Source: Anaeromassilibacillus senegalensis (GTDB lineage: Bacteria; Bacillota; Clostridia; Oscillospirales; Acutalibacteraceae). From it: a stretch of 64,000 nt of DNA. Shown piece after piece: positions 1 through 23,754 of the stretch. The stretch spans positions 310,001 through 374,000 of the forward strand of contig NZ_JAFBIT010000001.1 of the NCBI RefSeq assembly GCF_021531715.1. Direction: 5' to 3'. The position numbers were made by a program, and so were the translations under genes. The notes beneath the pieces are model-generated. The model was not told the DNA's origin. It made no database searches and saw nothing but the letters and a program-made list of their open reading frames with translations. Position 1 is the first letter of the stretch. Each line of letters opens with the position of its first letter.

Positions 1-1
1 A

Positions 2-2032
2 TGGCTGAAAAAGTGTAAGCGCTGGTATCAGTACACATCCGAGCAGCATTATGCCAACGTGGATCCTGTACTGGTGGTACAGGTGTGCCAAGGCAGCGGT
101 GGCGCATTATCCGACACCAATTTGGAGGATGTTCTTGCCAAGATTGAAGAAAAGGTTGGTACACCTTTTAAAGCAGGAGAAGTTGTCCACTGCTTTGGCG
201 AAGGAACTACCGTGGAGCTGAACGGTCTTCATATCCCCCATGTAAAGGCATCCGAAATTGCGGATGATCACAAAATCAAGGTTGTTTTCTTCAAGGAAGC
301 ACTATCCACCGGCTGGGACTGTCCCAGAGCAGAGACCATGATGTCCTTTGCTGTGAGAAACGATCCCACCTATATTGCGCAGCTCCTCGGCAGAATGGTG
401 CGTACACCACTTCAAATGCGCGTGATGCGTGACGAATTCCTGAATGATGTAAAGCTGTACCTTCCCCATTTCAACAAGGATACCGTAAAGAAGGTCGTGG
501 AGGAATTGCAGTCGAGTGAAGGCGGCGAAATTCCTACCGAGATCAACGGCGAATCGCTGGAGGAACCGACCTATATCACTTGGACGGTGCATACCCCCAG
601 ACGCGCAAGACAGGTGGAGCCGGATCCCAATCAGATGAGCCTATTTGATAGTCCGAGCGGTGGAGCAGCGACAACAGAAACACCGGCAGCGGTGTCTCCG
701 GCTACCAACACTCCGTATGTTGCGCCCACTACCAATAATGGTGGCAACAGCGCACCGGAATATATCCCTCCAAGAACGGTGACCATTCCGGCTACAGGCA
801 ATGGCCAGCCGGCAGCTCCTGTTGTTCCTGCAGAAGAAATTCTGCAGGGCAAGCAGCTGGAGTTCGCGCCGGAGCTTGATCGCGTGGAAATCATCGATTT
901 CATCAACGCCAAAGGCTACCTGACATACTTCGTCCGTCAGGATCGCATCAACGATTACCTGAAATCCCTGTTGGATCTGGCAACCCTGCTGACGCACAAC
1001 GTCATTTATCAGGGCGCACGCGACGAGGTCATCGACGATATTGTTGGTTTGATTCGTGAATACATTGACGATCTGCATCGCACCGGCAGATACGATGTGC
1101 TGGCGGATCAGGTGTTGCAGTTCAAATTGTCGGTACAGGTATTCGACCCGTTCGGCAAAGCGCTGCAGGAGAATTACTTCAATGATTTCACATTGATGTC
1201 GGAGACCGATCTGGATAGACAGGTACGCAACGCAGATGCCAAGCTGGGCAGATACGGATTCCCCAACATCTACGGCGGCAGATATTACGATGAGGAAAAC
1301 CCGAACGCGCATAAAATTGACTGCGTTCTCTTCGCAGCTGACGATGCATGTAGAGCAAAGCTCGGTGAGTATGCAAAGAATAAACTTCGTGAATTCTCTC
1401 GTAAATACCGTGTGGCGGTAGCAAACAGATCGGATGCTTGCAAGAAGAAGTACCGTGAAATCATGGCTGACAGCGCCGTGGTCAGCGAACAGCTTTTTGC
1501 TATTCCTGAAAATATCAGTGTTAGAGAGGATCCCGATGGCATCGAATATGAGAACCATCTCCTTGCTGCACCGGATACCGGTATCGCAAAGATAAAGCTG
1601 AACGGCTGGGAGGCTGCACTGATCGAGGAAGAATCGAAACGTACGGACTTCGTATGCTGGCTGAGAAACCCCTCCAGAGCAGCATGGGCGCTTTGCCTGC
1701 CCTACGATATTGGCGGCGAGAAAAAATCCTTCTACCCCGACTTCTTGATTGTACGCAGCGATCCGTCAGTTGACTATGTGGTTGATATTCTGGAACCCCA
1801 TGGTAACCAGTATGTCGACAATTTGCCGAAGGCAAAAGCGTTGGCAGAATATGCCAAAGCAGAAGATCGTCTCGGCAGAATTCAGTTGATCCACAAGACA
1901 ACGGATGCTGGCGGCACCAGCAGATTCATTCGCTTGGATCTCACGGACATGGCAGTACGTGATAAAGTTCTGCGTGCCTTCTCCAATGACGAACTGGATC
2001 ACATTTTTGAAACCGACGGCATAATCGAATAA
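2..2032 (+). CDS. DEAD/DEAH-box helicase of a type III-restriction-like family, C-terminal part
   Basis: The frame is already open at base 2, so the gene begins left of the window. The visible N-terminal part is the second helicase lobe: an FKEALSTGWDCPRA stretch (motif V region) and IAQLLGRMVRTP (motif VI, arginine fingers). A Pro/Thr/Asn-rich linker (about 650-830) follows, then a long domain ending in FYPDFLIV...VVDILEPHG, which looks like a PD-(D/E)xK-type nuclease core. The layout suggests an ATP-driven restriction or DNA-processing enzyme like the Res subunit of type III systems. No methyltransferase partner is visible. It lies upstream of accessory genes and may be cargo or a defence gene of the same element. 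Family assignment is fairly sure; the activity is inferred. Confidence 0.75.
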   Translation, partial: WLKKCKRWYQYTSEQHYANVDPVLVVQVCQGSGGALSDTNLEDVLAKIEEKVGTPFKAGEVVHCFGEGTTVELNGLHIPHVKASEIADDHKIKVVFFKEALSTGWDCPRAETMMSFAVRNDPTYIAQLLGRMVRTPLQMRVMRDEFLNDVKLYLPHFNKDTVKKVVEELQSSEGGEIPTEINGESLEEPTYITWTVHTPRRARQVEPDPNQMSLFDSPSGGAATTETPAAVSPATNTPYVAPTTNNGGNSAPEYIPPRTVTIPATGNGQPAAPVVPAEEILQGKQLEFAPELDRVEIIDFINAKGYLTYFVRQDRINDYLKSLLDLATLLTHNVIYQGARDEVIDDIVGLIREYIDDLHRTGRYDVLADQVLQFKLSVQVFDPFGKALQENYFNDFTLMSETDLDRQVRNADAKLGRYGFPNIYGGRYYDEENPNAHKIDCVLFAADDACRAKLGEYAKNKLREFSRKYRVAVANRSDACKKKYREIMADSAVVSEQLFAIPENISVREDPDGIEYENHLLAAPDTGIAKIKLNGWEAALIEEESKRTDFVCWLRNPSRAAWALCLPYDIGGEKKSFYPDFLIVRSDPSVDYVVDILEPHGNQYVDNLPKAKALAEYAKAEDRLGRIQLIHKTTDAGGTSRFIRLDLTDMAVRDKVLRAFSNDELDHIFETDGIIE

Positions 2033-2040
2033 TGTAATGA

Positions 2041-2075
2041 CCGGCAGAGGGAGAAATCCTTCTGCCGGTACTTTG
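2041..2075 (+). terminator. Terminator after the helicase gene
   Basis: The inverted arms CCGGCAG and CTGCCGG begin 8 bases after the helicase stop codon, with a T-rich run after them. Confidence 0.6.
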
Positions 2076-2161
2076 TTACTTAACTGCTAACAATGCGCCT
2101 TATGGCTGGATATTGTCACCGGAAGCTGGTATTGTGTGTCCCTGCCAAAGGAGGTGGCGAC

Positions 2162-2458
2162 ATGCGAAATATCATAGAGGAACTATACTATGGCAATATC
2201 ACTCCCTGCGATCGGGACATCGTCAAAGGCGGCACCTACTCCCATCTGCTGCACTTGGTGACACGAAACGAGGATGACCTGATGCAAACACTGACGCAAG
2301 AGCAGCAGGAAATCTTTGAGAAGTTCAAGGATTGCGCATCGGGGCTCAATGATGCCAACGAGCTAACGGCCTTCACCATCGGCTTCAAGCTCGGTATGCG
2401 TCTGGCGCTGGAGTCCATGATCAGCACCAGCGACATCACGGATCCCAAAATGAACTAA
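2162..2458 (+). CDS. DUF6809-like small protein
   Basis: This 98-residue protein starts at the ATG at 2162, placed by AAAGGAGG a few bases upstream; the frame is open further upstream but without a binding site. The N-terminus (EELYYGNITPCDR) and the C-terminal FTIGFKLGMRLALE segment match the pattern I associate with DUF6809, small helical proteins common on mobile elements of Clostridia. No catalytic motif is visible and the function is unknown. It sits alone between two terminator-like hairpins, just ahead of the iteron array. Confidence 0.65.
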   Translation: MRNIIEELYYGNITPCDRDIVKGGTYSHLLHLVTRNEDDLMQTLTQEQQEIFEKFKDCASGLNDANELTAFTIGFKLGMRLALESMISTSDITDPKMN

Positions 2459-2468
2459 TAGCAAAGCA

Positions 2469-2503
2469 CCATCGCAGCTGGAATGGTTGTGATGGCACTT
2501 TTT
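2469..2503 (+). terminator. Terminator-like hairpin after the DUF6809 gene
   Basis: CCATCGCA pairs with TGTGATGG (one G-U pair) and is followed by CACTTTTT. Its 3' side abuts the first iteron module. Confidence 0.45.
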
Positions 2504-2515
2504 GATCGTTGTTCC

Positions 2516-2620
2516 TGTGAAGTTGTGAATTTTTGTGAATCTTTTTTATGAAAAGTCATATATGAGAGGATATAGGAAAAGTTACCCTAAAAGCACTTCA
2601 CCATGATTCACTCCTTCACA
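2516..2620. repeat. Inverted-iteron module A (ori-like)
   Basis: Three TGTGAA words begin at 2516, 2524 and 2534 (steps of 8 and 10). Three inverted TTCAC words begin at 2597, 2607 and 2615 (steps of 10 and 8). The 57-bp A+T-rich core carries, on the minus strand, GGTAACTTTTCCTATAT, which is nearly the same as the core of the phage-satellite origin at 15155-15274. The module is in opposite orientation to modules B-E, judged by its core. It contains no gene. Confidence 0.7.
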
Positions 2621-2639
2621 GTTTGGTATAGCAGACGCT

Positions 2640-2748
2640 TTACTGAGGTTCTGAGGGTATCTGACTCTTTTTCGCGTAACTTTTTCTATATTCTTTTCAT
2701 ACGCGACTTTTTTAGAAAAAGAATCAGTAAGAGTCAGAACCTCAGTAA
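2640..2748. repeat. Inverted-iteron module B (ori-like)
   Basis: CTGA words begin at 2643, 2651 and 2661, and TCAG words at 2724, 2734 and 2742, so the 8/10 and 10/8 steps mirror each other. The core contains CGCGTAACTTTTTCTATAT and TACGCGACTTT; CGCGTA and TACGCG form an inner inverted repeat inside the iterons. Confidence 0.75.
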
Positions 2749-2810
2749 ATGTTTTTGTAGCGTTTTCCTTTATGGCCTTTTATGAAGGGGTGTATAGGGG
2801 AAACAAAACG

Positions 2811-2918
2811 TACTGGGGTACTGTGGCTTACTGATGCGATTTCGCGGAACTTTTTCTATATCTTTCTTATGCGCGACTTTTCCAGAAAAAGAACCAGTAA
2901 GAAGCAGTACCCCAGTAG
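2811..2918. repeat. Inverted-iteron module C (ori-like)
   Basis: CTG words (in TACTGGGG, TACTGTGG, TACTGATG) begin at 2813, 2821 and 2831. CAG words begin at 2895, 2905 and 2913. Geometry equals module B, but the iteron word differs on both arms in a compensating way. The core is conserved (CGCGGAACTTTTTCTATAT). Confidence 0.75.
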
Positions 2919-2958
2919 AAGGGTACTTTAGCGCCCTTCCGGGCGATGGTTTTTTAAC

Positions 2959-3068
2959 GGCTGAACTTCTGAAGGATTCTGGAGCAATTTCGCGTAACTT
3001 TTTCTATATTCTTCTTATACGCGACTTTCTTAGAAAATCATTCAGAAAAGTTCAGTTCTTCAGTAAAC
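2959..3068. repeat. Inverted-iteron module D (ori-like)
   Basis: CTG words begin at 2961, 2969 and 2979; CAG words (TTCAGAA, TTCAGTT, TTCAGTA) begin at 3043, 3053 and 3061. The core has CGCGTAACTTTTTCTATAT and TACGCGACTTT as in module B. Confidence 0.75.
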
Positions 3069-3096
3069 CATAGTTTTTAGGGGGATGATTTTTAAT

Positions 3097-3204
3097 AACT
3101 GAACGACTGATGCTAATTGAACCGATTTTCCCTATCTTTTCCTATGTTCTTCTTATATAGGACTTTATATAAAAACCATTCAGAAATAATCAGAAGTTCA
3201 GTAA
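3097..3204. repeat. Inverted-iteron module E (ori-like)
   Basis: CTG, CTG and TTG begin at 3099, 3107 and 3117; CAG words begin at 3181, 3191 and 3199. The outer geometry is unchanged. In the core the inner inverted repeat has become CCTAT/ATAGG, a paired change relative to CGCGTA/TACGCG of modules B and D. Confidence 0.7.
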
Positions 3205-3345
3205 ATAGTATCTTAGGCGTATGGCTTTTATTGTGAGGTGTATAGGGGAACAATGCGCAGCAGTCGATCACGGCCGTAAACACAACATATTGCACTATGA
3301 AAATAAAACGGTAAAAACAAAGCATAAAATATTGTGTTTTAGGTA

Positions 3346-3374
3346 TTGACACAAATGTTCGAATATGGTATAAT
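3346..3374 (+). promoter_or_regulatory. Promoter for a candidate non-coding RNA
   Basis: TTGACA at 3346-3351 and TATAAT at 3369-3374 are both perfect consensus boxes with a 17-bp spacer. No credible open reading frame follows for about 580 bp. Confidence 0.8.
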
Positions 3375-3380
3375 TAAAAT

Positions 3381-3553
3381 GTTGAAAGACACGCACAATT
3401 GAATAAATAGTGCGAAAGCACGACACCGAGGACTTTACCAGGAAACAGAGATCCCTTCGTGGGCAACCAGGAGACCTGCAAACATGACATAGAAGGTGGA
3501 TACACGATTCCCAGCAATAGCTGGACGAACGAGTATCCGCCTTCTTATTTTTT
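3381..3553 (+). ncRNA. Candidate structured non-coding RNA (about 170 nt)
   Basis: From the expected start near 3381 the transcript can form GTGC-GAAA-GCAC (3410-3421, a GNRA tetraloop), CAGG-AGA-CCTG (3468-3478) and CCAGC-AATA-GCTGG (3511-3524). The last is enclosed by GAAGGTGGATAC (3492-3503) paired with GTATCCGCCTTC (3533-3544), followed by TTATTTTTT, a terminator-like end. No start codon with a ribosome binding site lies inside. The family is not recognised. It lies between iteron modules and upstream of a lone capsid gene. Confidence 0.6.
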
Positions 3554-3554
3554 A

Positions 3555-3735
3555 GGTGACGTGCAGTGTACCTTGAAAACTAAATAGCCTCACGTGAGCG
3601 ATACCCGATCAACCATGTGCCATGACGATCCAGCAAGGGCTGGTATAAGAGCGCGATCAAGTAAAACAAGGAGACCTCGAGCAGGAGGCTGCCTTGGAAC
3701 CGTAGCGAAGGAGGTGTAACAACGGAAACAACCTA
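3555..3735. other. Non-coding stretch with short hairpins
   Basis: No gene is seen. It holds CTCACGTGAG, a CCAGC-AAGG-GCTGG hairpin (about 3631-3644) like the one in the preceding RNA, and GGAGACCT, which echoes the GGAGACCTG of that RNA. It could be a second or longer RNA, but no separate promoter is evident. Confidence 0.35.
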
Positions 3736-3736
3736 T

Positions 3737-3822
3737 TGTAGCAGATGTAGCAGGTTTACAGTATTGTTTCCTAAAAGAACAAAGAATTAGAATCAGCCAT
3801 AAACCCTGCTACATCAGCTACA
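3737..3822. repeat. Inverted-iteron module F
   Basis: GTAGCAG begins at 3738 and 3747 (step 9), and CTGCTAC/CAGCTAC at 3806 and 3815 (step 9), around an A+T-rich core. It has two iterons per side instead of three and a different word from modules A-E. Confidence 0.65.
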
Positions 3823-3850
3823 ACAAACAGAAGCAGCTGACATATCACTG

Positions 3851-3939
3851 TGTAGCAGGTTGTAGCAAGTAAAAATGGTTTTTTCTATAAAAGAATCGAT
3901 TTTCAATACAACCTATATTTCCTGCTACAAGCTGCTACA
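3851..3939. repeat. Inverted-iteron module G
   Basis: GTAGCAG/GTAGCAA begin at 3852 and 3862 (step 10) and CTGCTAC at 3922 and 3932 (step 10), around an A+T-rich core with TTTTTTCTATAAAAG. It shares its word with module F and ends just before the next gene. Confidence 0.65.
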
Positions 3940-3963
3940 GAAACGAACAGAAGGAGAAATGAG

Positions 3964-4230
3964 ATGAGAAATTACAAGTGCTACGGCACAAAAGACGGCA
4001 GGATGCCGATGACCATGCCAGACCCAGCAGACTTCGGTGACAGTCAGAAGGATGCGATCACCATGTACCACACAGAGGACGGCAAACCGGTGCTCCTGCG
4101 CAGGAGCATTGCACTGACTCCCATGCCGTGGTGTGTGCAGAGAGGCACCAGCACCGTATTCTTTAGTTACTACCGCGATGCGATCGAACACTGCCGCAAG
4201 CGCGGCTACAAGGTGACCGAGGAAGGATGA
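3964..4230 (+). CDS. Hypothetical 88-residue protein
   Basis: GAAGGAG sits just before the ATG at 3964. The protein is small, soluble-looking and mixed alpha/beta, with no motif I recognise. It is the first gene after iteron module G and its stop overlaps the start of the next gene, so the two are translationally coupled. It belongs to the row of small genes leading to the lone capsid gene; the function is unknown. Confidence 0.6.
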   Translation: MRNYKCYGTKDGRMPMTMPDPADFGDSQKDAITMYHTEDGKPVLLRRSIALTPMPWCVQRGTSTVFFSYYRDAIEHCRKRGYKVTEEG

Positions 4231-4436
4231 GTGGCATGAGCTTAAAAGACAAGCTGTTCGGCAGCAGTCTCTTCGCTGTCGGTAGACGCAGATACAAGAG
4301 AGCCGATGGCACTACGATTACAGTCACCAAGGATATCCGCTATACCGTTAAAGATGGCGGCCGCACTATCCATATGTACGATCTGGATGATGTGAAGCAC
4401 TATTGCAAATACAGCGGCCACAGCATCCCCCACTGA
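4227..4436 (+). CDS. Hypothetical 69-residue basic protein
   Basis: The start ATG at 4227 overlaps the previous stop codon (ATGA), with GAGGAAGG upstream; a second ATG at 4236 is also possible. The protein is rich in Lys/Arg near the N-terminus (GRRRYKRADG) and Tyr/His near the end. No family is recognised. A nucleic-acid-binding role would suit the charge but is only a guess. Confidence 0.55.
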   Translation: MSGMSLKDKLFGSSLFAVGRRRYKRADGTTITVTKDIRYTVKDGGRTIHMYDLDDVKHYCKYSGHSIPH

Positions 4437-4580
4437 CAGGCAGGGGGAGGTCAAATCTTGCCAACTTTTTATTTCCAAAACGGGTGCGGGGTCACACGTT
4501 AGACAGCGGGTTTTCAAGAGGGGGTATAGCCCCATAAATCAAGTTTTCAAGAGAAATACATTTTTTAGGAGGATTTTACA
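4437..4580. other. Intergenic stretch resembling a phage packaging-region segment
   Basis: The stretch has GGGGGAGGTCAAATCTTG, a G-rich tract around 4481-4520 and a GGGG-TATAG-CCCC hairpin near 4531. It reminds me of the conserved segment next to HNH/terminase genes in gut Firmicutes phages, where cos or pac sites lie. This is a resemblance from memory, not a demonstrated site. Confidence 0.25.
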
Positions 4581-4874
4581 ATGGCAGTTTATCCAATTAT
4601 GAGTGTCGGCAAGGGTGGAAACACGAAGCATCCTATGCACTCATGGAACACAGAGGAATGCATCAGCAAAGATCACGAATTTTACTTGACGGATGAGCTC
4701 AGCGAATCCGGAAAGCGTTATCGTCTTCATGCAAGGGACGCACACCGCACAGATGATTTCCTGCCCTACGTGGTACTCTGTCCCGGCTGCGGCAGAGAAA
4801 TGAAATGTGTTGGCGGTCCCAAGACCTTAAACACGCTCGGTTTGTACGAGTGTAAAAGATGTTTGAATTACTAA
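4581..4874 (+). CDS. Hypothetical zinc-ribbon protein
   Basis: AGGAGG precedes the ATG at 4581. The 97-residue protein ends in a four-cysteine knuckle: CPGC (residues about 72-75) and CKRC close to the C-terminus, a zinc-ribbon arrangement often seen in small nucleic-acid or protein-binding phage proteins. It is 12 bp upstream of the lone capsid gene, so the two are probably co-transcribed. The function is unknown. Confidence 0.6.
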   Translation: MAVYPIMSVGKGGNTKHPMHSWNTEECISKDHEFYLTDELSESGKRYRLHARDAHRTDDFLPYVVLCPGCGREMKCVGGPKTLNTLGLYECKRCLNY

Positions 4875-4886
4875 GGAGGAACAGAA

Positions 4887-5789
4887 ATGTATCATAGCAC
4901 TGAATACCACAGAGAATTTTGGAATGCTGCAAGAGGTAGAACCGTAACTTACAGCCACATCAGCGAGGGAAAAAACACTGCAAACGGCAGCTATCGCCTC
5001 CCCTCCGAGTCCGAAAAGAAGTTTGTCGCGGCTCGCAAGCAGGAAAACCTCCTGCGTCAGATCGCTACGGTGATGGATGCATTCAAGGGCGAAAATGTTG
5101 TGTGGGCATACGACAATGAGCCCGCCACTACTTGGCTGAACCAGCGCAACAACAGCAACTTCTTCCAGAACACCGAAGTGTTCGAAGAACATCGTCTGGA
5201 ATGCAACATCCTTGGTGCCTCCATTCTGATGCCCGAGGATTTCTGCAACGACGCAAATTTCGACTTGGAGGCTCACATCCTCAAAGACTTCGGTCGCAGC
5301 ATTTGCCGAGCAGAAGAAGCAGCCTTCATCAGCGGTGATGGTGTAGATGCACCCAGCGGTTTCCTGAAAGATGCCGTAACCGGCCACAGCACCAGCGACA
5401 TTACTTACGACGATGTGATCCGTCTGTTCTTCTCGCTGGACAAGGAATATCGCCGTAATGCAGTGTGGATCATGAACGACGAGTCTGCTCTCAAGCTCCG
5501 TACCCTCAAAGATTCCAGCGGCAATTACTTGTGGAACCACACAGACAACACGATCATGGGCAAGCCGGTGTACATCTCCAACTACATGCCCAGTGAAGCA
5601 GCAGGAGCCAAGCCCATCGCCATCGGTGACTTCAGCTACTACTGGATCATTGATCGCATGCCTTTCACAATGCGCCGCTTGAACGAGCTGTTCATTGCAA
5701 AGGGGCAGATCGGCTATCTTGGCTACGAATATCTGGATGCTAAGCTCATCCGTCCTGACGCAGTTCACGTGATGCAGATCACCGACTAA
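4887..5789 (+). CDS. HK97-fold major capsid protein, standalone
   Basis: The 300-residue product begins almost directly with the mature capsid N-arm (SEGKNTANGSYRLPSESEKKF, split here over residues about 26-46) and continues through the HK97 core: RQIATVM, the E-loop region, SGDGVDAPSGFL (about 149-160) and the C-terminal IGDFSYYWIIDR segment. The usual delta/scaffold domain is absent, and no protease, portal or terminase is adjacent. AAGGAGG places the start, and a strong terminator follows. The neighbours are small unknown genes and serine recombinases, not a phage head module. It could form small shells, supply capsomers to a helper's heads, or interfere with assembly. Family assignment is firm; the role is open. 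Confidence 0.85.
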   Translation: MYHSTEYHREFWNAARGRTVTYSHISEGKNTANGSYRLPSESEKKFVAARKQENLLRQIATVMDAFKGENVVWAYDNEPATTWLNQRNNSNFFQNTEVFEEHRLECNILGASILMPEDFCNDANFDLEAHILKDFGRSICRAEEAAFISGDGVDAPSGFLKDAVTGHSTSDITYDDVIRLFFSLDKEYRRNAVWIMNDESALKLRTLKDSSGNYLWNHTDNTIMGKPVYISNYMPSEAAGAKPIAIGDFSYYWIIDRMPFTMRRLNELFIAKGQIGYLGYEYLDAKLIRPDAVHVMQITD

Positions 5790-5798
5790 AATGGGCAA

Positions 5799-5862
5799 CC
5801 AGCGCAATTGCTAACTCTTTGCTAACAATGGCGATTGCGCTGGACTTTTCCCTTTCTTTCTG
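5799..5862 (+). terminator. Terminator after the lone capsid gene
   Basis: CCAGCGCAATTGC (5799-5811) pairs with GCGATTGCGCTGG (5831-5843), followed by a C/T-rich run. Confidence 0.6.
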
Positions 5863-5899
5863 GCTTAATTGTCTTACCAAAAACAAGGAGGTCACCGCA

Positions 5900-6211
5900 A
5901 TGACCATAGAGAAAGCACAGAAAGACTTTGACGAGCTGATCGAAAAGAACGGATTCACCCTCGCAGGTTATACCAGCGACATCGGCAATCCAATCTACCA
6001 CAGAGTGTGGAGACGGACGGTGCAGGTCGCGTGGCAGGGTGAGCAGGAGGACACGCTGGAAGTGAGAATCCTGCTGAGCTACGGATATCCGCTGGTGGTA
6101 GTCAAACGGAACGGTCGGCAAGATCCCAAATTCATCCGGGACTACTCAAGCCCCAAAAGAGCAATGAACGCAATCCGCGAAATCGTCAGATTCGCAGGAT
6201 TCGAATGGTAA
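5900..6211 (+). CDS. Hypothetical 103-residue protein
   Basis: The start is the ATG at 5900 after CAAGGAGG; an upstream in-frame extension has no binding site and would overlap the terminator. The sequence is mixed alpha/beta with a central VRILLSYGYPLVVV strand pair and a helical C-terminus. No family is recognised. It ends 37 bp before the interrupted recombinase gene and probably shares its transcript. Confidence 0.55.
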   Translation: MTIEKAQKDFDELIEKNGFTLAGYTSDIGNPIYHRVWRRTVQVAWQGEQEDTLEVRILLSYGYPLVVVKRNGRQDPKFIRDYSSPKRAMNAIREIVRFAGFEW

Positions 6212-6248
6212 GCAAAAACAAAAATCTATACGGAAGGAGGTTGATGCC

Positions 6249-6608
6249 ATGGCAAGAAAACGCGTGGTCGCTTATGTGCGCGTATCATCGTCCAGCAAGG
6301 CGCAGATTCACAGCTATGAGTTTCAGGAGCAATACTGGCGTGGGAAGTTCGATGGCGATCCCAACAACGAGCTGGTACACATATACGCAGATCGCGGGAT
6401 CAGTGGTTGCAGCGCATACAAGCGGCCAGAGTTCATGAAAATGCTGCAGGATGCCCGCGCAGGACAGTTTGATACCATACACACCAAATCGGTCTCCCGC
6501 TTCGCCAGAAACACCGTAGAGCTGTTAGACGCGGTGCGTGAGCTGCGCGACATGGGTGTTGAGGTCATATTCGAAAAAGAGTATATTCAGAACGGCGAAA
6601 ATGCTTGA
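6249..6608 (+). pseudogene. Large serine recombinase, N-terminal half (gene split by an island)
   Basis: Residues 1-110 are the resolvase catalytic domain of a large serine recombinase: catalytic Ser13 in YVRVS, then GISGCSAYKRPEF and KSVSRFARN with the active-site arginines. The ORF then runs into foreign DNA (YIQNGENA) and stops. The remainder of the gene lies at 19853-20984. Joining the two halves at GAAAAAGA (6573-6580 and 19845-19852) keeps the frame and restores EVIFEKEQISTMQP, giving a 487-residue protein. The gene is therefore not decayed but interrupted, and island excision should repair it. Start chosen by GGAAGGAGG upstream. Confidence 0.9.
6573..6580 (+). other. attL core of the integrated island
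   Basis: GAAAAAGA occurs here and at 19845-19852 as the direct repeat at both junctions. Inside the island it is followed by GTATATTCA, the arm that mirrors TGAATATAC at the other end. Confidence 0.85.
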
Positions 6609-6634
6609 TTTTCAAGGGTTTTCGCCGTTTCTTT
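6591..6634 (+). terminator. Terminator at the left end of the island
   Basis: AACGGCGAAAA (6591-6601) pairs with TTTTCGCCGTT (6619-6629), followed by TCTTT. It would end transcription entering from the truncated recombinase gene. Confidence 0.65.
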
Positions 6635-6641
6635 ATGCCTG

Positions 6642-6665
6642 TTTGTCGCTTATTTGTCGCTTAAA
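6642..6665 (+). repeat. Left arm-type integrase site (24-bp repeat)
   Basis: Two tandem TTTGTCGCTTA words form a 24-bp sequence that recurs identically and in the same orientation at 19685-19708, near the other end. Paired direct repeats inside both ends are typical arm-binding sites of tyrosine integrases. Confidence 0.7.
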
Positions 6666-6714
6666 TCTACAAGCCGATACTGAAAGATAACAGAAGTTCC
6701 GGCATGATTCCATA

Positions 6715-6743
6715 TTGAGAAAACGGCAGGGTTGTGGTATAAT
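6715..6743 (+). promoter_or_regulatory. Promoter of the restriction-modification operon
   Basis: TTGAGA (6715-6720) and TATAAT (6738-6743) have 17-bp spacing. This excludes the upstream in-frame start at 6715 and supports the ATG at 6793. Confidence 0.75.
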
Positions 6744-6792
6744 GCAAAATGATTTATTGTGCCCTGCACAATCTATGGAAAGGGGTATTTCA

Positions 6793-8310
6793 ATGAAACT
6801 TCAAACTTATGATGAAACCCTTGAAGAGAAAATGTCAGAGTTTGACATATGGGTTACGCCCTCGCTTGGCGAAATTCGTGATATGCCGCAATTCAAAGTG
6901 AACTTAGACAACATGAAAAGCGGATTTGATTATATGGCACAAGTAACAGGGAATTTTGAATCGGTTTCAAGTTGTTCTTCGTCTGCTCTTGCTCAAAATA
7001 CTGTTCGGCTTATAGCAGGCGAACCCGACGACACAAAGCAGATAATTCTTAACTGCCTTTGCGGGGTACTGCTTCTTGTGACAGGCAAAACGGATAACAA
7101 TTTGAAATGCCAGTTCCCTTTATTGCTGCGCAATACCTACGGAATGAAAGAATACCCGCAAAAGAATAGCGCCGGGCGTTGGGTAAACAAACAGTTGCCG
7201 CGTACATTGCAGTTTGATGCGGTATCTAAAATCATTATTCAAGCAGATGGCAAAGCAGACTTTCAAGAAAAGTTCCTTGAAAGCTATTTTCATCTCATTA
7301 TTTCGGATGAAACATATGCAAAACAGTTATGGAGTTTGGGGACAGCGTACTATTCGCAAAAGCAAATAGGCAATGCAGAAGCATTACTTAGTCCTATTGT
7401 TGTTTTTCAGTCTCGCGGCTCTATAACAGCGACACAAGGACATATACCTGAAACAATTCTTCGTTCATATATGGCAGAATGGGGGCTTGAAGCGGGGACA
7501 GACTATAACACGCAAGATGTTGAAATTGGTCAACTGCTTGGCGATATTGAAGCAAACCCACAAATTAAAAAAAGAAAATACGATTTCATAATACCTTATC
7601 AATCAAGAGAAAGCGGCGCAAAAGTGTTCGTACAGAGTCAATTTTATGCCGGTGATTCTGGAAGCGTTTCGCACAAGGTCGTTGACCAAACCGACAGCAG
7701 CCGTGAAGTAACTCTTAAAAAGTACCCACAAGCCGTATTTGTTGAATATCTTGATGGGGCGGGCTATTTTTCGTCTTTGAATGGCGATTTAAGAAAAATG
7801 CTTGCGAAGCCTTCAACAAAGAATTTCATTCAAATTACTACGGCTCCATTAAAATTGCGCCGTGAATTGCAGGGAATCAATTTTCTTACTACACTGGAAA
7901 TCGAACATGCAATTTTGATGACAGGCGGTAAAAAAGTTGATGTAATAGAAAAATTACATAACGACGGCTATTCCGTTGATGAAATAGACACAGCATTGAA
8001 AGCGGCGATTAGAAATGCGGTGCTTTCGGATAATGACTTTTTGACTATTTCACGTGATAGGGAAAGCATTGTCAGGAAGTATTGCATTCTTGACACCATA
8101 GCAAACTATGGTCAGCCTATTCCGGCAGATAGCACAGCGGGTTATTTGACGGTTCCCGGATATTCAACGTATTGGGGATTGCTTCAAGCGGACGTAATAA
8201 AACGCGCTCTGGAAATTGCGCCCATGTTGAATTCACTTTGGCGTTCTCATTTAGAACCGTTTGATGATATTCAATGGTTACTGGAGAAAGGATTTGTTAA
8301 AACGAAATGA
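6793..8310 (+). CDS. Probable type II restriction endonuclease
   Basis: The 505-residue protein starts at ATG 6793 after AAAGGGG and overlaps the methyltransferase gene by 4 bp, the usual arrangement of a restriction-modification pair. Residues about 262-300 hold a likely nuclease core: YDFIIPY (Asp264), then KVFVQSQFYAGDSGSVSH with Gln281-x-Gln283, a plausible PD-(D/E)xK variant in which the acidic residue is replaced. The C-terminal part (VEYLDGAGYF...LRRELQGINF) looks like a conserved accessory domain. It is not a phage structural gene and fits as satellite cargo that kills competing phages. The exact specificity cannot be read. Confidence 0.7.
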   Translation: MKLQTYDETLEEKMSEFDIWVTPSLGEIRDMPQFKVNLDNMKSGFDYMAQVTGNFESVSSCSSSALAQNTVRLIAGEPDDTKQIILNCLCGVLLLVTGKTDNNLKCQFPLLLRNTYGMKEYPQKNSAGRWVNKQLPRTLQFDAVSKIIIQADGKADFQEKFLESYFHLIISDETYAKQLWSLGTAYYSQKQIGNAEALLSPIVVFQSRGSITATQGHIPETILRSYMAEWGLEAGTDYNTQDVEIGQLLGDIEANPQIKKRKYDFIIPYQSRESGAKVFVQSQFYAGDSGSVSHKVVDQTDSSREVTLKKYPQAVFVEYLDGAGYFSSLNGDLRKMLAKPSTKNFIQITTAPLKLRRELQGINFLTTLEIEHAILMTGGKKVDVIEKLHNDGYSVDEIDTALKAAIRNAVLSDNDFLTISRDRESIVRKYCILDTIANYGQPIPADSTAGYLTVPGYSTYWGLLQADVIKRALEIAPMLNSLWRSHLEPFDDIQWLLEKGFVKTK

Positions 8311-9056
8311 GCGTAAAAGATATTATCTTTGAATCAATAGACAAACAAGGGGTTGCAATATTACCGCCTATGGATGTTTTTGATTCTATCAACCTTTTGA
8401 AAACAGAACAAATACATGTTGCCTGTACGATGCTCGATCCTTGGTATAACAAGGGAAAAGGCGATGTATTACCTACCGATGAATATGACGCTTTTATACA
8501 GCAGTTGTTGGAAAATTCCGGAGAAATATCAGACTTGTTATATCTTTGGGGATTCCCGGAAGTAATTGGGCCATATGTAAGATATGCCCCTAAAGATTTT
8601 TATATGGTATCATGGTTGACGTGGTACTATAAAAATTGTCCTTCCGTTATTCGCGGGTGGCGTTCAAGTCAGAACGCTTGCATTCAATTTATGCGTCATG
8701 GTTATGCGTTGCATCCTGAACATTTTTTGAACGAAACGCAAAAGGAAAAATTTGAATCAGGGAAAATGCGCTTTGTTCCGGGGCCTCCCAGTGTTATTGA
8801 ATCACCCTTAATTATTGGTTTTGTTGGGAAAAAGGAACAAACAGGGCATCCGTCTCAAAAACCTGAAGCCGTATTTGATAAACTGTTGCTTATGGCAATG
8901 GCTGATAATCAAATAGTATTTGACCCTATGGCGGGTTCAGGAACAACGGGTGCATCTGCTACGAAAAACGGTTTTCGGGCAATTCTTTGTGATAAGAATG
9001 AAGAATATATTTCTCTTATGGAAAATCGACTTAATGTGAAACGTATTTCCATATAA
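8307..9056 (+). CDS. DNA methyltransferase (beta-class N4-C/N6-A) of the R-M pair
   Basis: The protein has 249 residues. The catalytic motif IV DPWY is at 44-47, near the N-terminus, and the SAM-binding motif FDPMAGSGTTG is at 205-215, near the C-terminus. This IV-before-I order marks beta-class amino-methyltransferases that make N4-methylcytosine or N6-methyladenine. HPSQKPEAVFDKLL before motif I is typical of the family. It overlaps the nuclease gene (ATGA) and should protect the host and the island DNA from it. Confidence 0.85.
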   Translation: MSVKDIIFESIDKQGVAILPPMDVFDSINLLKTEQIHVACTMLDPWYNKGKGDVLPTDEYDAFIQQLLENSGEISDLLYLWGFPEVIGPYVRYAPKDFYMVSWLTWYYKNCPSVIRGWRSSQNACIQFMRHGYALHPEHFLNETQKEKFESGKMRFVPGPPSVIESPLIIGFVGKKEQTGHPSQKPEAVFDKLLLMAMADNQIVFDPMAGSGTTGASATKNGFRAILCDKNEEYISLMENRLNVKRISI

Positions 9057-9074
9057 CAGAAAGGCGGTGTCATT

Positions 9075-9548
9075 ATGTCGAAACCTTTTCATGTGATCGC
9101 AACGCCGGACGAAAACGGTTATACGGTTACTATTCCCGAAAACCCGAATGTTTCCGCCCGCTGCGCGGATGCTGCCGACATTGTACCGACAGCGACAGCA
9201 GCAAAGGAACAGGACGAACAGAATAGGCATGAAAAAACCGCCGTCTGTCCGAAATGCGGAAAGACATATACAGGTTATCCGGCAATGTCACGGACAGACA
9301 ACAAAACGGAAATCTGCCCGGAATGCGGAACCCGTGAAGCGTTGGACGCTGCCGGGGCTGGCAAAGCAGAACAGGACAGAATAATAGCAGAAATACAGAA
9401 AGCCGCGGCGCGGGCGTTTAAGCCTGCCGTTTGCAATATAAGGTCAGATCGCTTTTGTAACCCTCGAAAACGTCCACGCGGACGATATTATACTTTACGC
9501 CTTTATACAGTATCACGTTTTCGGTCGTTATGTCTGTGCGGTAATTGA
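9075..9548 (+). CDS. Zinc-ribbon satellite/phage protein with a run-on tail
   Basis: AAAGGCGG precedes the ATG at 9075. CPKC (about residues 58-61) and CPEC (about 80-83) form a zinc ribbon; the TGYPAMSRTDNKTEICPECGTREAL segment, taken in two halves, is a pattern common in small proteins of Firmicutes phages. Family members usually end soon after the segment equivalent to AEIQKAA. Here the frame continues about 40 residues into the complement of the convergent head-closure gene, with Arg/Cys-rich sequence that looks out of frame. The natural stop was probably lost when cargo was joined to the head module near 9415. Confidence 0.6.
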   Translation: MSKPFHVIATPDENGYTVTIPENPNVSARCADAADIVPTATAAKEQDEQNRHEKTAVCPKCGKTYTGYPAMSRTDNKTEICPECGTREALDAAGAGKAEQDRIIAEIQKAAARAFKPAVCNIRSDRFCNPRKRPRGRYYTLRLYTVSRFRSLCLCGN

Positions 9549-9726
9549 TAACAAACATTACTTCTTCCGTGGTCTGCGTCGTCACTCTGTAAATCTCATT
9601 CCCGGAAAGCTGCCGGAAATATGCCCATACCGTCGCAATGGTCACGGTTTCCTTTTTATGGTTCCCGTACTTGTCCGTAACGTATTGAACGCCCTGTATA
9701 TCTATTTTCTTGTCTTTCAGCTTCAT
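9418..9726 (-). CDS. Phage head closure protein
   Basis: This 102-residue protein has the small beta-rich head-closure/head-tail-joining fold pattern: VWAYFRQLSGNEIYRV (about 33-48), FVINYRTDITTENVILYKGVKYNIV (about 58-82, given in parts) and a final LTLYCKR strand. Such proteins seal the portal after packaging and form the tail attachment site. It is the last gene of the head operon and its 3' end overlaps the convergent zinc-ribbon ORF. Having this gene but no tail genes suggests that finished heads take the tails of a helper phage. Confidence 0.85.
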   Translation of the reverse strand: MKLKDKKIDIQGVQYVTDKYGNHKKETVTIATVWAYFRQLSGNEIYRVTTQTTEEVMFVINYRTDITTENVILYKGVKYNIVRVDVFEGYKSDLTLYCKRQA

Positions 9727-9740
9727 GCCGCTGCCCCCTT

Positions 9741-11384
9741 TCAGATCGCGGTTGTATATTCGTTGTAATGCTCATACAGGCCGACGTAACAATCAAGCAG
9801 CGCCGCCGTTCCGTCAATGCGCTGTTTCGGTGATTGGTTCTTGATTGGAACTATATTTCCGTTTCGGTCGGTCTGTATGCCCGTATTGGTCAGGCACCAT
9901 TTCAGAACGGGGTTATTGTTGTATACGACTTTGTGTGCCTGTAAGTCTGCCCCTAACATCTGCATAGGCAGGGAAAGGGTTTTCGCGCCCTGTATGCAGC
10001 GAACCATATTGAAACCCTGCATTTGCATTTCTTCCACGAAATACCGGGCGGAATAGCTGTCATAATATACCCATGCCGGGAACAGGTCGTATTGCTTCAC
10101 GGTTTCAAGAAACCATGCTGTCACGTCGGAATAATTGATGCTGTTCCCGTCGCAAAGGCGTAATAAGCCCCGGTCGAACCATTTGTCATAGGGGATTTTG
10201 TCTTGCTGCACGCGTTCCGTCAGGCGGTCGGCAGGTATCCAGTACATTTGTGTTATATACTTGTGATCGTCGCCCCGGCGCATGAACAGCAGGCTTGCAC
10301 AAGTCAGGTCTGTTGTTATGGACAGGTCAACGCCGCCGATACAGTACGCGCCCCGGAACTGTTCAAGGTCAAACGTGGTTTCATTGTTTATGTCGTCAAA
10401 GGAAAGCCACGCTGTTTTTACCGTTTCCCGGACGTTGAATTCTTTACACAGAACGCCGGAAAGTTCATTCCGGTTCTGCTTTGCCCGGTCAACTTTCGCG
10501 GTCAGGTCGTCCGTTTTCTTGATGCTGCCTAATGCCGGGTTAGCTTTCGCCCATGCTGCCGGGTCTGTCCATTCGCTGCGGTCGTCCAGTTCGTACAGAA
10601 CAGGCAGGAAATGGGGGTCTGTAATAGCCCCGTCCGCCACGCTTGCCGCGTATGAATACATATCGTCAAATATACATTCCCGGACGGTTCCGGCGGTCGT
10701 TATCATAATAAGCAGCGGTTGGCGACGTGCCGCCATGCTCTGCCGCATGACTTCATAAAGGTTCCTGTCCTTTACGCCGTGCAATTCGTCCATGATAACG
10801 AATGAAGCGTTTAACCCGTCCAGCGTGTCAGAATTGCGGGCAAGGGGCTGAAACTTTGACATTGTGGGTTCATAGTACAGATCGCTTTTGCGCTTCCTGA
10901 AATGCTTTGACAGCGCCGGGGACTGCTTTATCATGTTATGCGCTTCATCGAACAATAAACGCGCCTGCGCGTATTTGGTCGCGGTGCTGTAAACCTCTGC
11001 GCCGCCCTCGCCGTCGCTTGTCAGCATATACAGGGCAAGCCCCGCAAGCAGCGTTGATTTGCCGTTTTTACGCCCCACAAGAAAGAAACTTTCCCGGTAC
11101 TGCCTGCACCCGCTGTCACGGTCTACAAAGCCATACAGGGCTTGTATATAGGCTTTTTGGAACAGTTCAAGGGAAATACTATGCCCCGCCCATTCGCCTT
11201 TTGAATGCTTGCAGAAACGTTCTATAAAGGCAATAGGACGATTAGCGCGGGTTTCGTCAAAGATATATTGCCCGGACGTTTCGGCGGTCGCTGCTGCAAG
11301 ACGGGCATATACCTGTTTTACCCGTCTTGAAACAACGATTTTCCCGGACTGTATCAAGTTGTTGTATTCTGTGATGTAGTTCAT
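9741..11384 (-). CDS. terL: Terminase large subunit
   Basis: The 547-residue protein is the ATP-driven DNA-packaging motor. The ATPase domain has Walker A GRKNGKST (104-111) and a Walker B/catalytic region SFVIMDELHG near residue 200. The C-terminal RNase H-like nuclease domain includes CIGGVDLSITTDLT with the first active-site Asp. The length is normal for this phage family. It overlaps the upstream small gene by 4 bp (ATG/TGA coupling). Together with the HNH gene it points to cos-type packaging, by analogy with related phages. Confidence 0.93.
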   Translation of the reverse strand: MNYITEYNNLIQSGKIVVSRRVKQVYARLAAATAETSGQYIFDETRANRPIAFIERFCKHSKGEWAGHSISLELFQKAYIQALYGFVDRDSGCRQYRESFFLVGRKNGKSTLLAGLALYMLTSDGEGGAEVYSTATKYAQARLLFDEAHNMIKQSPALSKHFRKRKSDLYYEPTMSKFQPLARNSDTLDGLNASFVIMDELHGVKDRNLYEVMRQSMAARRQPLLIMITTAGTVRECIFDDMYSYAASVADGAITDPHFLPVLYELDDRSEWTDPAAWAKANPALGSIKKTDDLTAKVDRAKQNRNELSGVLCKEFNVRETVKTAWLSFDDINNETTFDLEQFRGAYCIGGVDLSITTDLTCASLLFMRRGDDHKYITQMYWIPADRLTERVQQDKIPYDKWFDRGLLRLCDGNSINYSDVTAWFLETVKQYDLFPAWVYYDSYSARYFVEEMQMQGFNMVRCIQGAKTLSLPMQMLGADLQAHKVVYNNNPVLKWCLTNTGIQTDRNGNIVPIKNQSPKQRIDGTAALLDCYVGLYEHYNEYTTAI

Positions 11385-11623
11385 ACCGGGGTATTGAATG
11401 CGGTCAGGGGGTCAACCTCGGTTTCCGCCTGTACACGCTTTTCCTGTTCCGCGCACAGCTTCAAATACTGTTTCTGCACGGGCAGACATACCCGGAAAAG
11501 CCGGGTGTATTCGTCCGTGTCGCCGTTGTTCCTTGCAGCGGCGATTTCATTTTGCAGGAATAGTAATTCATCATTCAGGAAATTGATTTCCTGCTGTAAT
11601 TCCTGCTCATAGCTTTCATTCAT
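11381..11623 (-). CDS. Small helical protein between HNH and terminase
   Basis: The 80 residues are almost entirely helical, with the coiled-coil-like segment ELQQEINFLNDELLFLQNEI near the N-terminus. It overlaps both neighbours by a few bases, so the head operon is tightly coupled here. It lies where a small terminase subunit is expected but is shorter than usual members and lacks a recognisable DNA-binding motif. It could be a reduced TerS or a packaging accessory factor. Confidence 0.55.
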   Translation of the reverse strand: MNESYEQELQQEINFLNDELLFLQNEIAAARNNGDTDEYTRLFRVCLPVQKQYLKLCAEQEKRVQAETEVDPLTAFNTPV

Positions 11624-12405: not shown

Positions 12406-12438
12406 TTTGCTTTGCCGTCCTTTCCGGGCAAGGCGGCA

Positions 12439-15046: not shown

Positions 15047-15154
15047 TGGTCAAAACTCCTTTCCTGAAATTGTTTTTTTCTCTGCGGGGGAAAAGAAAGC
15101 CCCTGCACCGTTGCCCGGTGCCTGCCGTCAGGGGCTTGCCCCGGGGGTGTCTGT

Positions 15155-15274: not shown

Positions 15275-15299
15275 TTTCGCCCGCCTGCGCCCGCTGCCG

Positions 15300-19852: not shown

Positions 19853-20984
19853 ACAGATCAGCACCATGCAGCCCACCAGCGAGCTGTTCTTAACGATCGC
19901 AGCCACCATTGCAGAGAACGATCTGGAAGTGGATTCGAAACGACAGAAATGGTCAATCCAGCACCGCTTTGAAAACGGCTGGTATTCTATCGGCAGCAGT
20001 ATGTACGGATTCCGTATGGCGGCAAATAACACCGTGGTCATCGTGCCGGAACAGGCAGAAGTGGTGCGGTGTATCTACGACATGTATATCTCTGGCTGTG
20101 GATGCCTCGCAATCGCCAAAACACTCAACGAAGCTGGAATCCCAAATGGCAAAGGAAATCCGTGGCGACCAAACAATATCCTCCAGCTCATTAGCAATGA
20201 GAAATACATGGGCGATGTCATGATGGGTAAAAGCGTCCGTATCGACGGAGCCAAGTGCGATAACTTGGATGGTCGTTACGGTGAGCGGTACTACATCGAG
20301 AATGCCCACGACGGTATTGTCAGCAAAGAAATTTTCTACCGCGCACAGGTAATCCGACAGGAGCGGGCAAATCCCAAGCTGGTGAAGCAGGAGCATCCCA
20401 GCTATCCGTTCACAGGCATGATCGTATGCGGCTGCTGCGGCAGCACCTTCCGCCACAAGGTCAATAACAGCGGCAAGAAATGGCGCAATGATATATGGAT
20501 CTGCGCCAGACAGGAACGGCAAGGCCGCGAGCAGTGCGACAGCACCCGAATTAAAGATACGATACTGCAAGAAAAGTTCATAGAAGCATACAACGAATTT
20601 GTCACCCGACGGCCGCAGGGTGATACCATAGATGCTATACAAATGGTCATAAGGCAACTCCAGCAGGAGGAAGAAAAGCTGGCAGGGCTGCTGATGCGAA
20701 AGCTCACCTCGGATAAAGCATTCCGCGCTGAGCAGCAGTCCATCAAGGCCAGAATCCGAGAGCAGCAGGAATACATCCGGCAGCTACAAAGAAACAATAT
20801 ACGAGAAAGCGACTATACAACGATCACAGACTTCGACGAAGCAAAGCTCAAATTATTCGTGGAGCAAATCATAATGACGCCAAATCACGTGACCTTCCGC
20901 TTCTTCAATGGCGTGGAGATCACGAAGGAATATACAAACGGTCAGCCGGGTAACAAACCCGGCTGGAACAAGAAGGAGGTGTGA
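19853..20984 (+). pseudogene. Large serine recombinase, C-terminal half (gene split by the island)
   Basis: This continues the gene at 6249. It begins EQISTMQPTSELFLTIAATI, the end of the catalytic domain and long helix, followed by the recombinase domain (YGFRMAANN...GIPNGKGNPWRPNNILQLISNEKY, in parts), a zinc-ribbon (CGCCGSTF...CARQ...C) and a coiled-coil C-terminus. An internal ATG at 19866 exists, but no ribosome binding site supports its use. The stop overlaps the next recombinase gene region, so an intact operon of two recombinases is expected after excision. Confidence 0.88.
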
Positions 20985-22581: not shown

Positions 22582-22617
22582 AACACAGCAGCGGAGCTAC
22601 ACCGTTGCTGTGTTTTG
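22582..22617 (+). terminator. Terminator after the recombinase operon
   Basis: AACACAGCAGCGG and CCGTTGCTGTGTT pair around a 7-nt loop, followed by TTGCGC. Confidence 0.65.
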
Positions 22618-22623
22618 CGCTCA

Positions 22624-22652
22624 TTGAAAAAATCAGACTTTTGTGGTATAAT
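22624..22652 (+). promoter_or_regulatory. Promoter of the Shedu gene
   Basis: TTGAAA (22624-22629), 17 bp, TATAAT (22647-22652); GGAGG then precedes the GTG at 22681. Confidence 0.75.
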
Positions 22653-22680
22653 TAAACAAAAACACACGGAGGTATATTCG

Positions 22681-23754
22681 GTGGAGTCTAAATTCGTTAA
22701 CAAAAAGCAAGCAAAAGGTAATGATAATATCGAATATGGAGAAGTCTCCGTATTGCATAGCAGTAGTCAAAGCGAGATTACAATATTGCCCTTTTTTATT
22801 AAGCATTCCGACCCAACAAGAGAACGTGATTTATGCATAAAGATCGCGCGTAACAAAAAAACCTCTGGATTCTCTTTTCCAGAGGTAGAAATAAATATGA
22901 GAGAAAAGGCAATTCTAGCACTTCGCGATAAGCTAAACGAATTGTTGGCTCTTAAGAAAATCCCGGAAAACGGGAATTTCTTGCTCGTTAGGATAGGAGA
23001 TGAGCAGCAAGTAGATTTGTCCGGATTGGATACATCGGATGTTGCAAAAGCGTTAATATCGGTGCTGGAGAATGATGAAATTGTCGAACACATCGATGCA
23101 ATAGACTTTTCTGACAATTTGGCTTTTGCATTTAGAAATTCTATAAAGATTAAAAGCCTCATTAAGGCAATGGATGAATTGGAGGCTGCACTTGAGACAG
23201 AAGTCAGCGAACAATACTATCAGGAGTGGTGCGAGCGAAACGGTTGGGTTTTCGGTAATCAATATGTAATGAAAGATTCTGAACGAAGAATATCACGTAA
23301 TGACAATGTGGATTTGTTGGCATCATCAGTTGTAACGGGATATAGGGATATTATAGAGCTAAAAAAGCCGACCTTTTCTGTTTTGAACTATGATTCTAGC
23401 CATGATTCCTACTATTTTTCTGTAGAAGTTTCGAAAGCAATCGGTCAGTGCCATAGATACTTGGATGTGTTTTCGGAAGAAGCTGTGACGGGGTTGCGCG
23501 ATAATAGAGAAATTGTGGCCTACCACCCAAGAGCAACTATAGTGGTTGGTCGTAGTAATGATTGGACTGATGATCAGCACAGAGCACTTCACGGGTTGAA
23601 CAGCCGGATGAATGGTATATCCATTTTGACGTACGATCATTTATTACTACAAGGCAGAAGACTTGTTGAAATGCTTCAGAATACACAGAGCACTGAAACA
23701 GAACCATCAGGATTAGACTTTGATTTTGAAGAAGATGATTCTCTGCCTTTTTAA
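22681..23754 (+). CDS. sduA: Shedu anti-phage protein (SduA, DUF4263 nuclease)
   Basis: The GTG at 22681 follows GGAGG; earlier in-frame codons overlap the promoter. Residues about 175-300 form the DUF4263 PD-(D/E)xK nuclease-like core: Asp211 in NVDLLAS, Glu226-x-Lys228 in RDIIELKKP, and Gln256 in AIGQCHRYLDVF. The variable N-terminal half (about 1-170) is the sensor-like part in Shedu proteins, and the tail is acidic. Shedu acts alone as a defence nuclease. It follows the recombinase operon directly, with its own promoter, and a HEPN-like gene follows. Confidence 0.82.
   Translation: MESKFVNKKQAKGNDNIEYGEVSVLHSSSQSEITILPFFIKHSDPTRERDLCIKIARNKKTSGFSFPEVEINMREKAILALRDKLNELLALKKIPENGNFLLVRIGDEQQVDLSGLDTSDVAKALISVLENDEIVEHIDAIDFSDNLAFAFRNSIKIKSLIKAMDELEAALETEVSEQYYQEWCERNGWVFGNQYVMKDSERRISRNDNVDLLASSVVTGYRDIIELKKPTFSVLNYDSSHDSYYFSVEVSKAIGQCHRYLDVFSEEAVTGLRDNREIVAYHPRATIVVGRSNDWTDDQHRALHGLNSRMNGISILTYDHLLLQGRRLVEMLQNTQSTETEPSGLDFDFEEDDSLPF

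Follow-up and report, generated by a model that had tools for sequence, protein, structure and literature searches.

Genes and features around the array

The window, the whole 64-kb stretch of DNA analyzed here, carries near its left end an array of five short noncoding modules, A to E (2516-3204). To the left of the array lie a type III restriction-like gene (59..2032, plus strand), whose reading frame begins at -829 and whose PADLOC match to REase_III is weak (E 3.8e-6) and unaccompanied by any Pfam match, and a DUF6809 gene (2093..2458, plus strand; PF20648, E 3.8e-24). To the right are two further origin-like sites that the first-pass annotation did not include: module F (3737..3823), with TGTAGCA words at a 9-bp step, one of them imperfect, as judged by visual comparison with other TGTAGCA-type loci, and module G (3851..3939), with TGTAGCA words at a 10-bp step in a pattern that recurs in 14 viral contigs. 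These are followed on the plus strand by an 88-aa open reading frame (ORF; 3964..4230), a 97-aa ORF, an HK97-type capsid gene (4887..5789; PF05065, E 1.1e-57), and the N-terminal part of a serine recombinase (6249..6608; PF00239, E 1.8e-20). The C-terminal part (19866..20984, plus strand; PF07508 and PF13408) lies about 13 kb away, beyond a restriction-methylase pair and a PICI-like element with terminase and VapE genes (Pfam) and portal-, capsid-, and integrase-like ORFs recognized by eye. The split could reflect insertion into the recombinase of another element, reminiscent of helper-embedded PICIs. At the right end of the region stands a Shedu SduA-type defense gene (22615..23754, plus strand; PADLOC SduA, E 5.7e-141; PF14082), and the defense-type genes detected near the array by PADLOC also include a type II methylase and weak restriction matches.

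The closest relative of this locus, in genome G284, has the order DUF6809, cargo, D5 helicase, TGTAGCA-type origin, 88-aa ORF, second ORF, capsid, and recombinase. The window keeps the DUF6809 gene (a similar ORF was found by eye at L155 10117-10413 in the G284 satellite) and the part from the small ORFs to the capsid gene, and the array stands at the place of the G284 cargo and D5 genes. No D5 gene lies beside the array. The capsid protein is 59% identical to its G284 counterpart, and the 88-aa product is 82% identical to the G284 ORF and 33% identical to the C3 ORF of its own genome; a search with it found nothing in viral contigs and, in 146 sampled genomes, the window copy alone (G284 evidently lying outside that sample). 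The order of origin, small ORFs, capsid, and serine recombinase typical of D5-capsid satellites is present in the window, with the recombinase split. TGTAGCA-type sites are found between the D5 gene and the 88-aa ORF in G284 and beside D5-like genes in L259, L262, L264, and L265; by reading, L259, L260, L262, and L265 have the order D5 helicase, origin, capsid, serine recombinase, and among the TGTAGCA-type loci the helicases of L262 and G284 alone were domain scanned. Module G probably once served as the origin of the satellite itself. In the same genome, L153 11486-17818 (C3) holds another satellite of the D5-origin-capsid-recombinase type, with TGTGGCA words.

Anatomy of the array

A scan of the window for six 5-base words at steps of 8 and 10, a core of 45 to 74 bases, and mirrored steps returned 11 overlapping registers, which covered all five modules and nothing else; the same scan found no such plan in five shuffled windows or in five additional stretches, roughly 95 kb in size. 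Module A (2517..2619, minus strand) has GTGAA words with a score of 30/30, B (2643..2745) has CTGA words (27/30), C (2811..2917) has TACTG words (30/30), D (2961..3063) has CTGAA words (29/30), and E (3099..3201) has CTGA words (27/30), the last four on the plus strand. With 200 shuffles per module, maxima reached only 21 to 23 of 30, and the five-module plan with steps of 8/10 and 10/8 described from the sequence in the first-pass annotation is thus upheld. Neighboring modules are separated by 23 to 65 bases and share 61 to 77% pairwise identity.

Within the array the geometry is fixed, the core measuring 57 bp in the CTGA/GTGAA register; the core of C reads as 61 because TACTG begins two bases earlier. 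The claim that each module has a different word held in part. Once the modules stand in register, A is the sole one with a clearly different word, and spacers and flanking bases vary, but B to E share CTG(A), apart from variants that include CTGG (C and D) and TTGA (E), and their apparent difference is largely one of register. Changes affecting both arms, as originally proposed, are frequent: across 13 sequences, eight of them phage origins, 14 of the 19 consensus pairs changed on both sides at least once.

Between the inverted words lies an A+T-rich core which, in alignments, has GTAACTTTTYCTATAT-like and GACTTT motifs, E departing in the left one. The core string held to be conserved throughout, GTAACTTTTTCTATAT, occurs unaltered in just B and D. 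It varies in C and E, and in A it lies on the minus strand with one mismatch, which makes A inverted relative to the other four. A covariance model of 13 sequences, R1, built from modules A to E and the eight phage origins, likewise matches A on the minus strand (99.5 bits, A being a training member).

To the right of the array is a consensus promoter (3346-3374; TTGACA-17-TATAAT, 12/12 with TG) that reads away from it and is followed by about 170 nucleotides, at the end of which lie a hairpin (3491-3545) and a T run. This stretch (3346-3555) may hold a small RNA or a leader between the array and the satellite genes.

Counterparts beside PrimPol-D5 genes

A search of IMG/VR with a pattern made of the two core halves found 11 contigs, one of which, phage contig L194, has inverted arms. 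L194 shares with module C the word TACTGGGGTACTG on both arms, the gap between these words in L194 being 82. Its site lies between a primase-helicase gene with Prim-Pol, PriCT_1, D5_N, DUF5906, and Pox_D5 domains (domain scan) and a small gene without a Pfam match at E 0.001, which we take to be a VRR-NUC nuclease. Relatives of the L194 helicase led to seven further distinct loci in phage contigs and Clostridia assemblies, and a site of the array type follows the D5 gene directly in all eight (L194, L228, L230, L234, L235, L236, L237, and L241), with duplicates counted once (L229 repeats L228, and L243 is the same sequence as L236). By its anatomy and its position next to the D5 gene in eight distinct loci, this kind of site, to which modules A to E belong, is very probably a phage replication origin. 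The equation of the array with SaPI/PICI origins was given up once D5 genes were found beside its relatives: what corresponds to the array is not the VapE origin but the origin of phages with a D5 helicase. Nor did the covarying inner stem survive, and the corresponding hairpin was dropped, since phage relatives mostly keep TACGCG on the right while the left side varies (CCTGTA in L194, CCCTTT in L234).

More distant D5 genes (13 of 19 loci, 25 to 38% identity) have other sequences at the place of the origin. Eight of these 13 loci were inspected there and three analyzed: L249 resembles the array in its core but uses other words and is not matched by R1, and L244 and L245 have inverted AGGACACTT words. 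In a set of 304 loci (1.94 Mb, with many overlapping copies), a score of at least 27 on the fixed plan was reached only by copies of the array, by the origins of L194, L228/L229, and L241 (including duplicates of these loci), and by the G148 site. The geometry is not universal. When the steps were left free, the choice was 8/10 for L194, L228, L234, L235, and L241, 8/9 for L237, 7/10 for at least one arm of G696 and L230, and irregular steps for L236. Free-step word scores were 25 to 30 of 30 for nine D5-adjacent origins and 27 to 30 for A to E. This consistency, within the range of the phage origins, argues that the modules are not dead copies bearing random substitutions, an outcome that the first-pass annotation had allowed for. 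Greater regularity of the array words over phage words was discarded as a finding, since it came from a test that fixed the array's own steps and the free-step ranges agree.

Orientation also has counterparts among the phages. Module A resembles L230 and L236 in its GTGA words and its orientation, and L242 is likewise inverted by R1; B to E are oriented like the remaining phage origins, opposite to L230 and L236. The array might instead be a set of transcribed structured RNAs or regulatory repeats, since its arms are able to pair and a consensus promoter lies nearby, but we consider this extremely improbable: that promoter points away from the modules, no Rfam family reaches its gathering score within positions 1-20000 of the window, A has the opposite orientation to its neighbors, like L236 and L242/L230, and the same kind of site comes after helicase genes.

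The D5 genes of L228 (3001-4764) and L235 (3501-5267) encode proteins with 91% overall identity, falling to 74% in the final 90 columns, and the two origins share 67% identity, as expected if the binding end of D5 changes with its site. These two genes form a natural pair for mapping word specificity.

Other searches of sequence collections were negative. With the array as BLAST query, none of 50,697 phage or 72,556 plasmid records matched at E 0.01, and a VapE protein query found no match in viral contigs. Exact GTAACTTTTTCTATAT occurs in at least 120 viral stretches, none of which, among the matches listed, has the 8/10 plan. The pattern TTTTYCTATAT..GACTTTT occurs at 29 places in 391 genomes, fewer than its reversed control, and among the places fetched inverted arms were found only at the array itself.

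Relatives of individual modules

Judged by the arms alone, the nearest D5-adjacent origin is different for each of the five modules, although runners-up are often within 2 to 5 points and for A, B, and D the lead is narrow. The arms of A are nearest to L230 (69%), and over its full length A is 69% identical to G148, 68% to L241 and E, and 67% to L230. The arms of B are nearest to G696 (81%), followed by L237 (79%), and its full length is 76 to 77% identical to C, D, and G148 and 76% identical to L235 and G696; over the full length, A and B are without a single best phage partner. Module C matches L235 and L194 (arms, 82% to both; full length, 82% and 80%, respectively), D matches L228 best (79% full length, 75% arms), and E matches L241 (75% full length, 78% arms), tied with the orphan site G148. 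Because the best partner differs from module to module, these comparisons favor a collection over simple tandem duplication, with C, D, and E as the stronger cases and A and B as the weaker ones. They do not imply five deep lineages, since the D5 proteins of the partners of C and D (L235 and L228) are the 91%-identical pair.

Two stretches within and beside the array are probable remnants of a leader that in phages precedes the gene following the origin. One comes after B (2777..2807, plus strand) and aligns with the leaders of L194, L228, L234, L235, L237, and L241 and with G148; the other comes after E (3225..3253, plus strand), up to GGGGAACAATG. The alignment has 16 invariant columns over nine sequences. 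G148 keeps the leader of B almost letter for letter, and in the stretch fetched no such gene was seen behind it.

Leader-like stretches accompanying at least two modules would also be expected of a recombination hotspot that had gathered origin fragments from past prophages and left them functionless. The nested mobile elements at the locus fit such a history, as does a word regularity no better than that of phage origins. It nonetheless seems to us improbable, for the five sites are intact, closely spaced, and as regular in their words as phage origins.

Related sites in other genomes

Scores of R1 for its own 13 training sequences arise by construction; the sites in G804, G148, G696, G538, and G762 lie outside that set. 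In each genome the R1 searches scored a subset of the candidates (9 to 150, among those listed), so that absences are soft, and the genome samples overlap, so that their counts are not additive. The covariance search proposed in the first-pass annotation did find the same kind of site elsewhere, beside initiator genes. Among 391 genomes of the class, seven had matches: the genome that carries the array (G000), G750, G540, G705, G696, G538, and G762. Outside G000 there are 11 distinct strong places (one in G705, two in G696, five in G538, and three in G762), and a D5-like ORF adjoins every one of them, by reading without a domain scan; the G705 origin is the L237 sequence and is not an independent case. 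The matches in G750 and G540 are weak (E above 0.005), with no D5-like ORF in the stretch, and were treated as chance; G980 has a weak match as well (E 0.008). In G538, G696, and G762, which belong to another family, loci L286 to L299 present several D5-origin-capsid loci per genome with CTGAC words.

Among 394 genomes of the order, matches were confined to G000, G804, and G148, and sites without a D5 gene were found in these three genomes only (five, three, and one, respectively). G804 has three adjacent modules (R1 E 1.8e-7, 2.8e-5, and 1.1e-4), and G148 has one site (E 8e-15). The middle G804 module has a free-step word score of 26/30; the other two, at 23/30, are at the level of shuffles and rest on their R1 matches of 2.8e-5 and 1.1e-4. 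No D5 gene was seen in the stretches fetched (14 kb for G804 and 8.6 kb for G148), both sites being near contig ends, at 1.8 kb and 0.4 kb. Within their own families, R1 matched G804 plus one weak case among 146 genomes and G148 alone among 21. The occurrence of D5-less sites in two families other than that of G000 is a further point against passive accumulation at a hotspot. Among the matches listed, BLAST did not find the array in 59 relatives.

Beside the G804 array, PADLOC matched the candidate defense genes PDC-M42A, PDC-M42B, and PDC-S31. Directly to its left is a protein with ParB_N and PglZ domains (L283 2-1627). Next to the D5-less origin of G148 is a series of small hairpins formed by GAAATAACGCTTCGCGTTAT-like units (L284, near 8300-8649).

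Resident initiators

Five D5/VapE genes were found in G000, and none of their loci (L158, L159, L160, L231, and L233) has an R1 site; over the whole genome, R1 matched the array alone among the candidates scored. A cognate resident initiator thus appears to be absent, as far as searched. The earlier statement that no initiator lies nearby is correct for a cognate one, but a VapE gene is present 12 kb from the array, with its own TTAGGG-word origin (15156-15274, 9-bp steps). That site, the probable origin of the PICI-like element, resembles the array in its core motif, GTAACTTTCCCTATAT, which suggests that VapE and D5 origins may have a core in common.

A proposed origin decoy

We infer origin function, initiator binding, firing, and resistance for the array from sequence comparison. 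The reading that we favor, with about as much doubt as confidence, is that the array is a natural, multispecific origin decoy resembling the phage-encoded resistance (PER) elements discussed below. Several phage origins, cut off from any initiator gene, would have been gathered in a region of satellite and defense genes. The PrimPol-D5 primase-helicase of a phage would bind the inverted words of a module through its winged-helix end and melt the A+T-rich core, the site being double-stranded DNA. Upon infection by a matching phage, its D5 protein would bind the array and probably fire it, drawing initiator and replisome off the phage genome, and phage replication would fall by PER-type interference. 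Several specificities in a row would widen the range of phages affected.

We favor this reading because a single origin of the Sfi21 type is reported to hinder phages and the array has five, with words as regular as those of phage origins; because defense genes lie nearby; and because the five resident D5/VapE genes are without such an origin. Against it, copy number is said to govern PER, and one chromosomal array, unless amplified, may titrate little. Also counting against it are the narrow leads of the nearest relatives, the low word scores of two G804 modules, the closeness of the G804 and G148 sites to contig ends, the small number of genomes with D5-less sites (three), and the BLAST result in the 59 relatives. 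The possible roles listed at the outset, namely origins for several related initiators, decoys, and captured repeats, do include what now looks like the likely answer, but the initiators would be D5 proteins and not VapE.

Replisome piracy offers another outcome. A satellite that had lost its own D5 gene would be replicated by a matching helper phage, much as begomovirus betasatellites are replicated by the helper Rep, and interference would be a side effect. The position of the array, where G284 has its D5 gene, fits this well, as does the retention of origin G and the capsid gene. We regard it as the closest rival, though less likely than not, and several observations count against it. By R1, there is no CTGA/GTGA-type origin in the G284 stretch (L155), and R1, which covers that type only, was negative in 11 of the 14 TGTAGCA contigs (L257 and L259 to L268); the 13-kb insertion that splits the recombinase makes present mobility doubtful; and the G804 array is not in a recognizable satellite. 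Both piracy and the favored decoy need a phage D5 protein acting on the array, and the difference is who gains. If piracy is true, the locus is an initiator-less satellite bearing the origins of several helpers.

The decoy reading can be extended to a general proposal, which we put forward with more doubt than confidence: satellites and defense islands may keep heritable libraries of origins from past invaders as multispecific DNA decoys that capture initiators, and phages may escape through joint changes of the D5 end and the origin. Such libraries, if they exist, would amount to protein-free, sequence-specific immunity by imitation. If the array is a decoy, it could explain the divergence of origins and initiator ends among related phages, and the correspondence between words and D5 winged-helix ends would be a code open to testing.

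Comparison with known systems

The D5 phage origins (L194, L228, L230, L234 to L237, and L241) are like the array in the kind of words, in the core, and, for two stretches, in the leader; unlike the array, each stands directly behind a D5 gene. SaPI/PICI origins resemble it in having iterons that flank an A+T-rich region, but they lie beside the satellite's own VapE/Rep gene, whereas the nearest VapE gene here is 12 kb off. The satellites with D5, origin, capsid, and serine recombinase (G284, L259, L262, L265, and C3) share the gene order to the right of the array, and that of G284 also has DUF6809 to the left; they differ in that the D5 gene adjoins the origin. Satellites are described as replicating from their own origin (PMC10803314). 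In a limited search of the open-license PMC literature, we found no report of natural origin arrays.

The nearest functional precedent is PER, described since the 1990s in phages of lactococci and Streptococcus thermophilus (Foley 1998 and McGrath 1999, as represented in citing papers) and mentioned for lactococcal origins supplied in trans in the available portion of PMC8965321. In the Sfi21 record, a D5-type primase ORF and the gene after it flank a site labeled "origin of replication, 302 bp non-coding region, phage inhibitory sequence." The primase ORF matches Pox_D5 (2.6e-20) and DUF5906 (6.2e-18), the preceding ORF carries Prim-Pol and PriCT_1, and the D5-type protein is 21% identical to that of L194 (E 8e-16). 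The passage of PMC6356513 that cites Foley 1998 reports that infection activated the Sfi21 element, that its action depended on copy number, and that its protection extended to 17 of 25 phages. An origin broadly of this type is thus reported to hinder phages.

Sfi21, like the array, is a noncoding origin of a D5-type system with inverted word pairs (GTTAC) at an 8-bp step around an A+T-rich core, and it shares Prim-Pol, PriCT_1, DUF5906, and Pox_D5 with L194. It differs from the array in its words and its longer core, and from L194 in that its helicase is divided between two ORFs with no D5_N match and the next gene is not similar. Of the traits of a PER element, the array appears to have the noncoding likeness to an origin, and, as far as searched, it stands without a cognate initiator gene. 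In the portions of PMC6356513 and PMC8965321 available to us, PER refers either to one origin cloned in trans or to one suggested for a prophage region, whereas the array has five in a row on the chromosome; a natural, multispecific chromosomal array, if that is what it is, would turn PER into an immune strategy.
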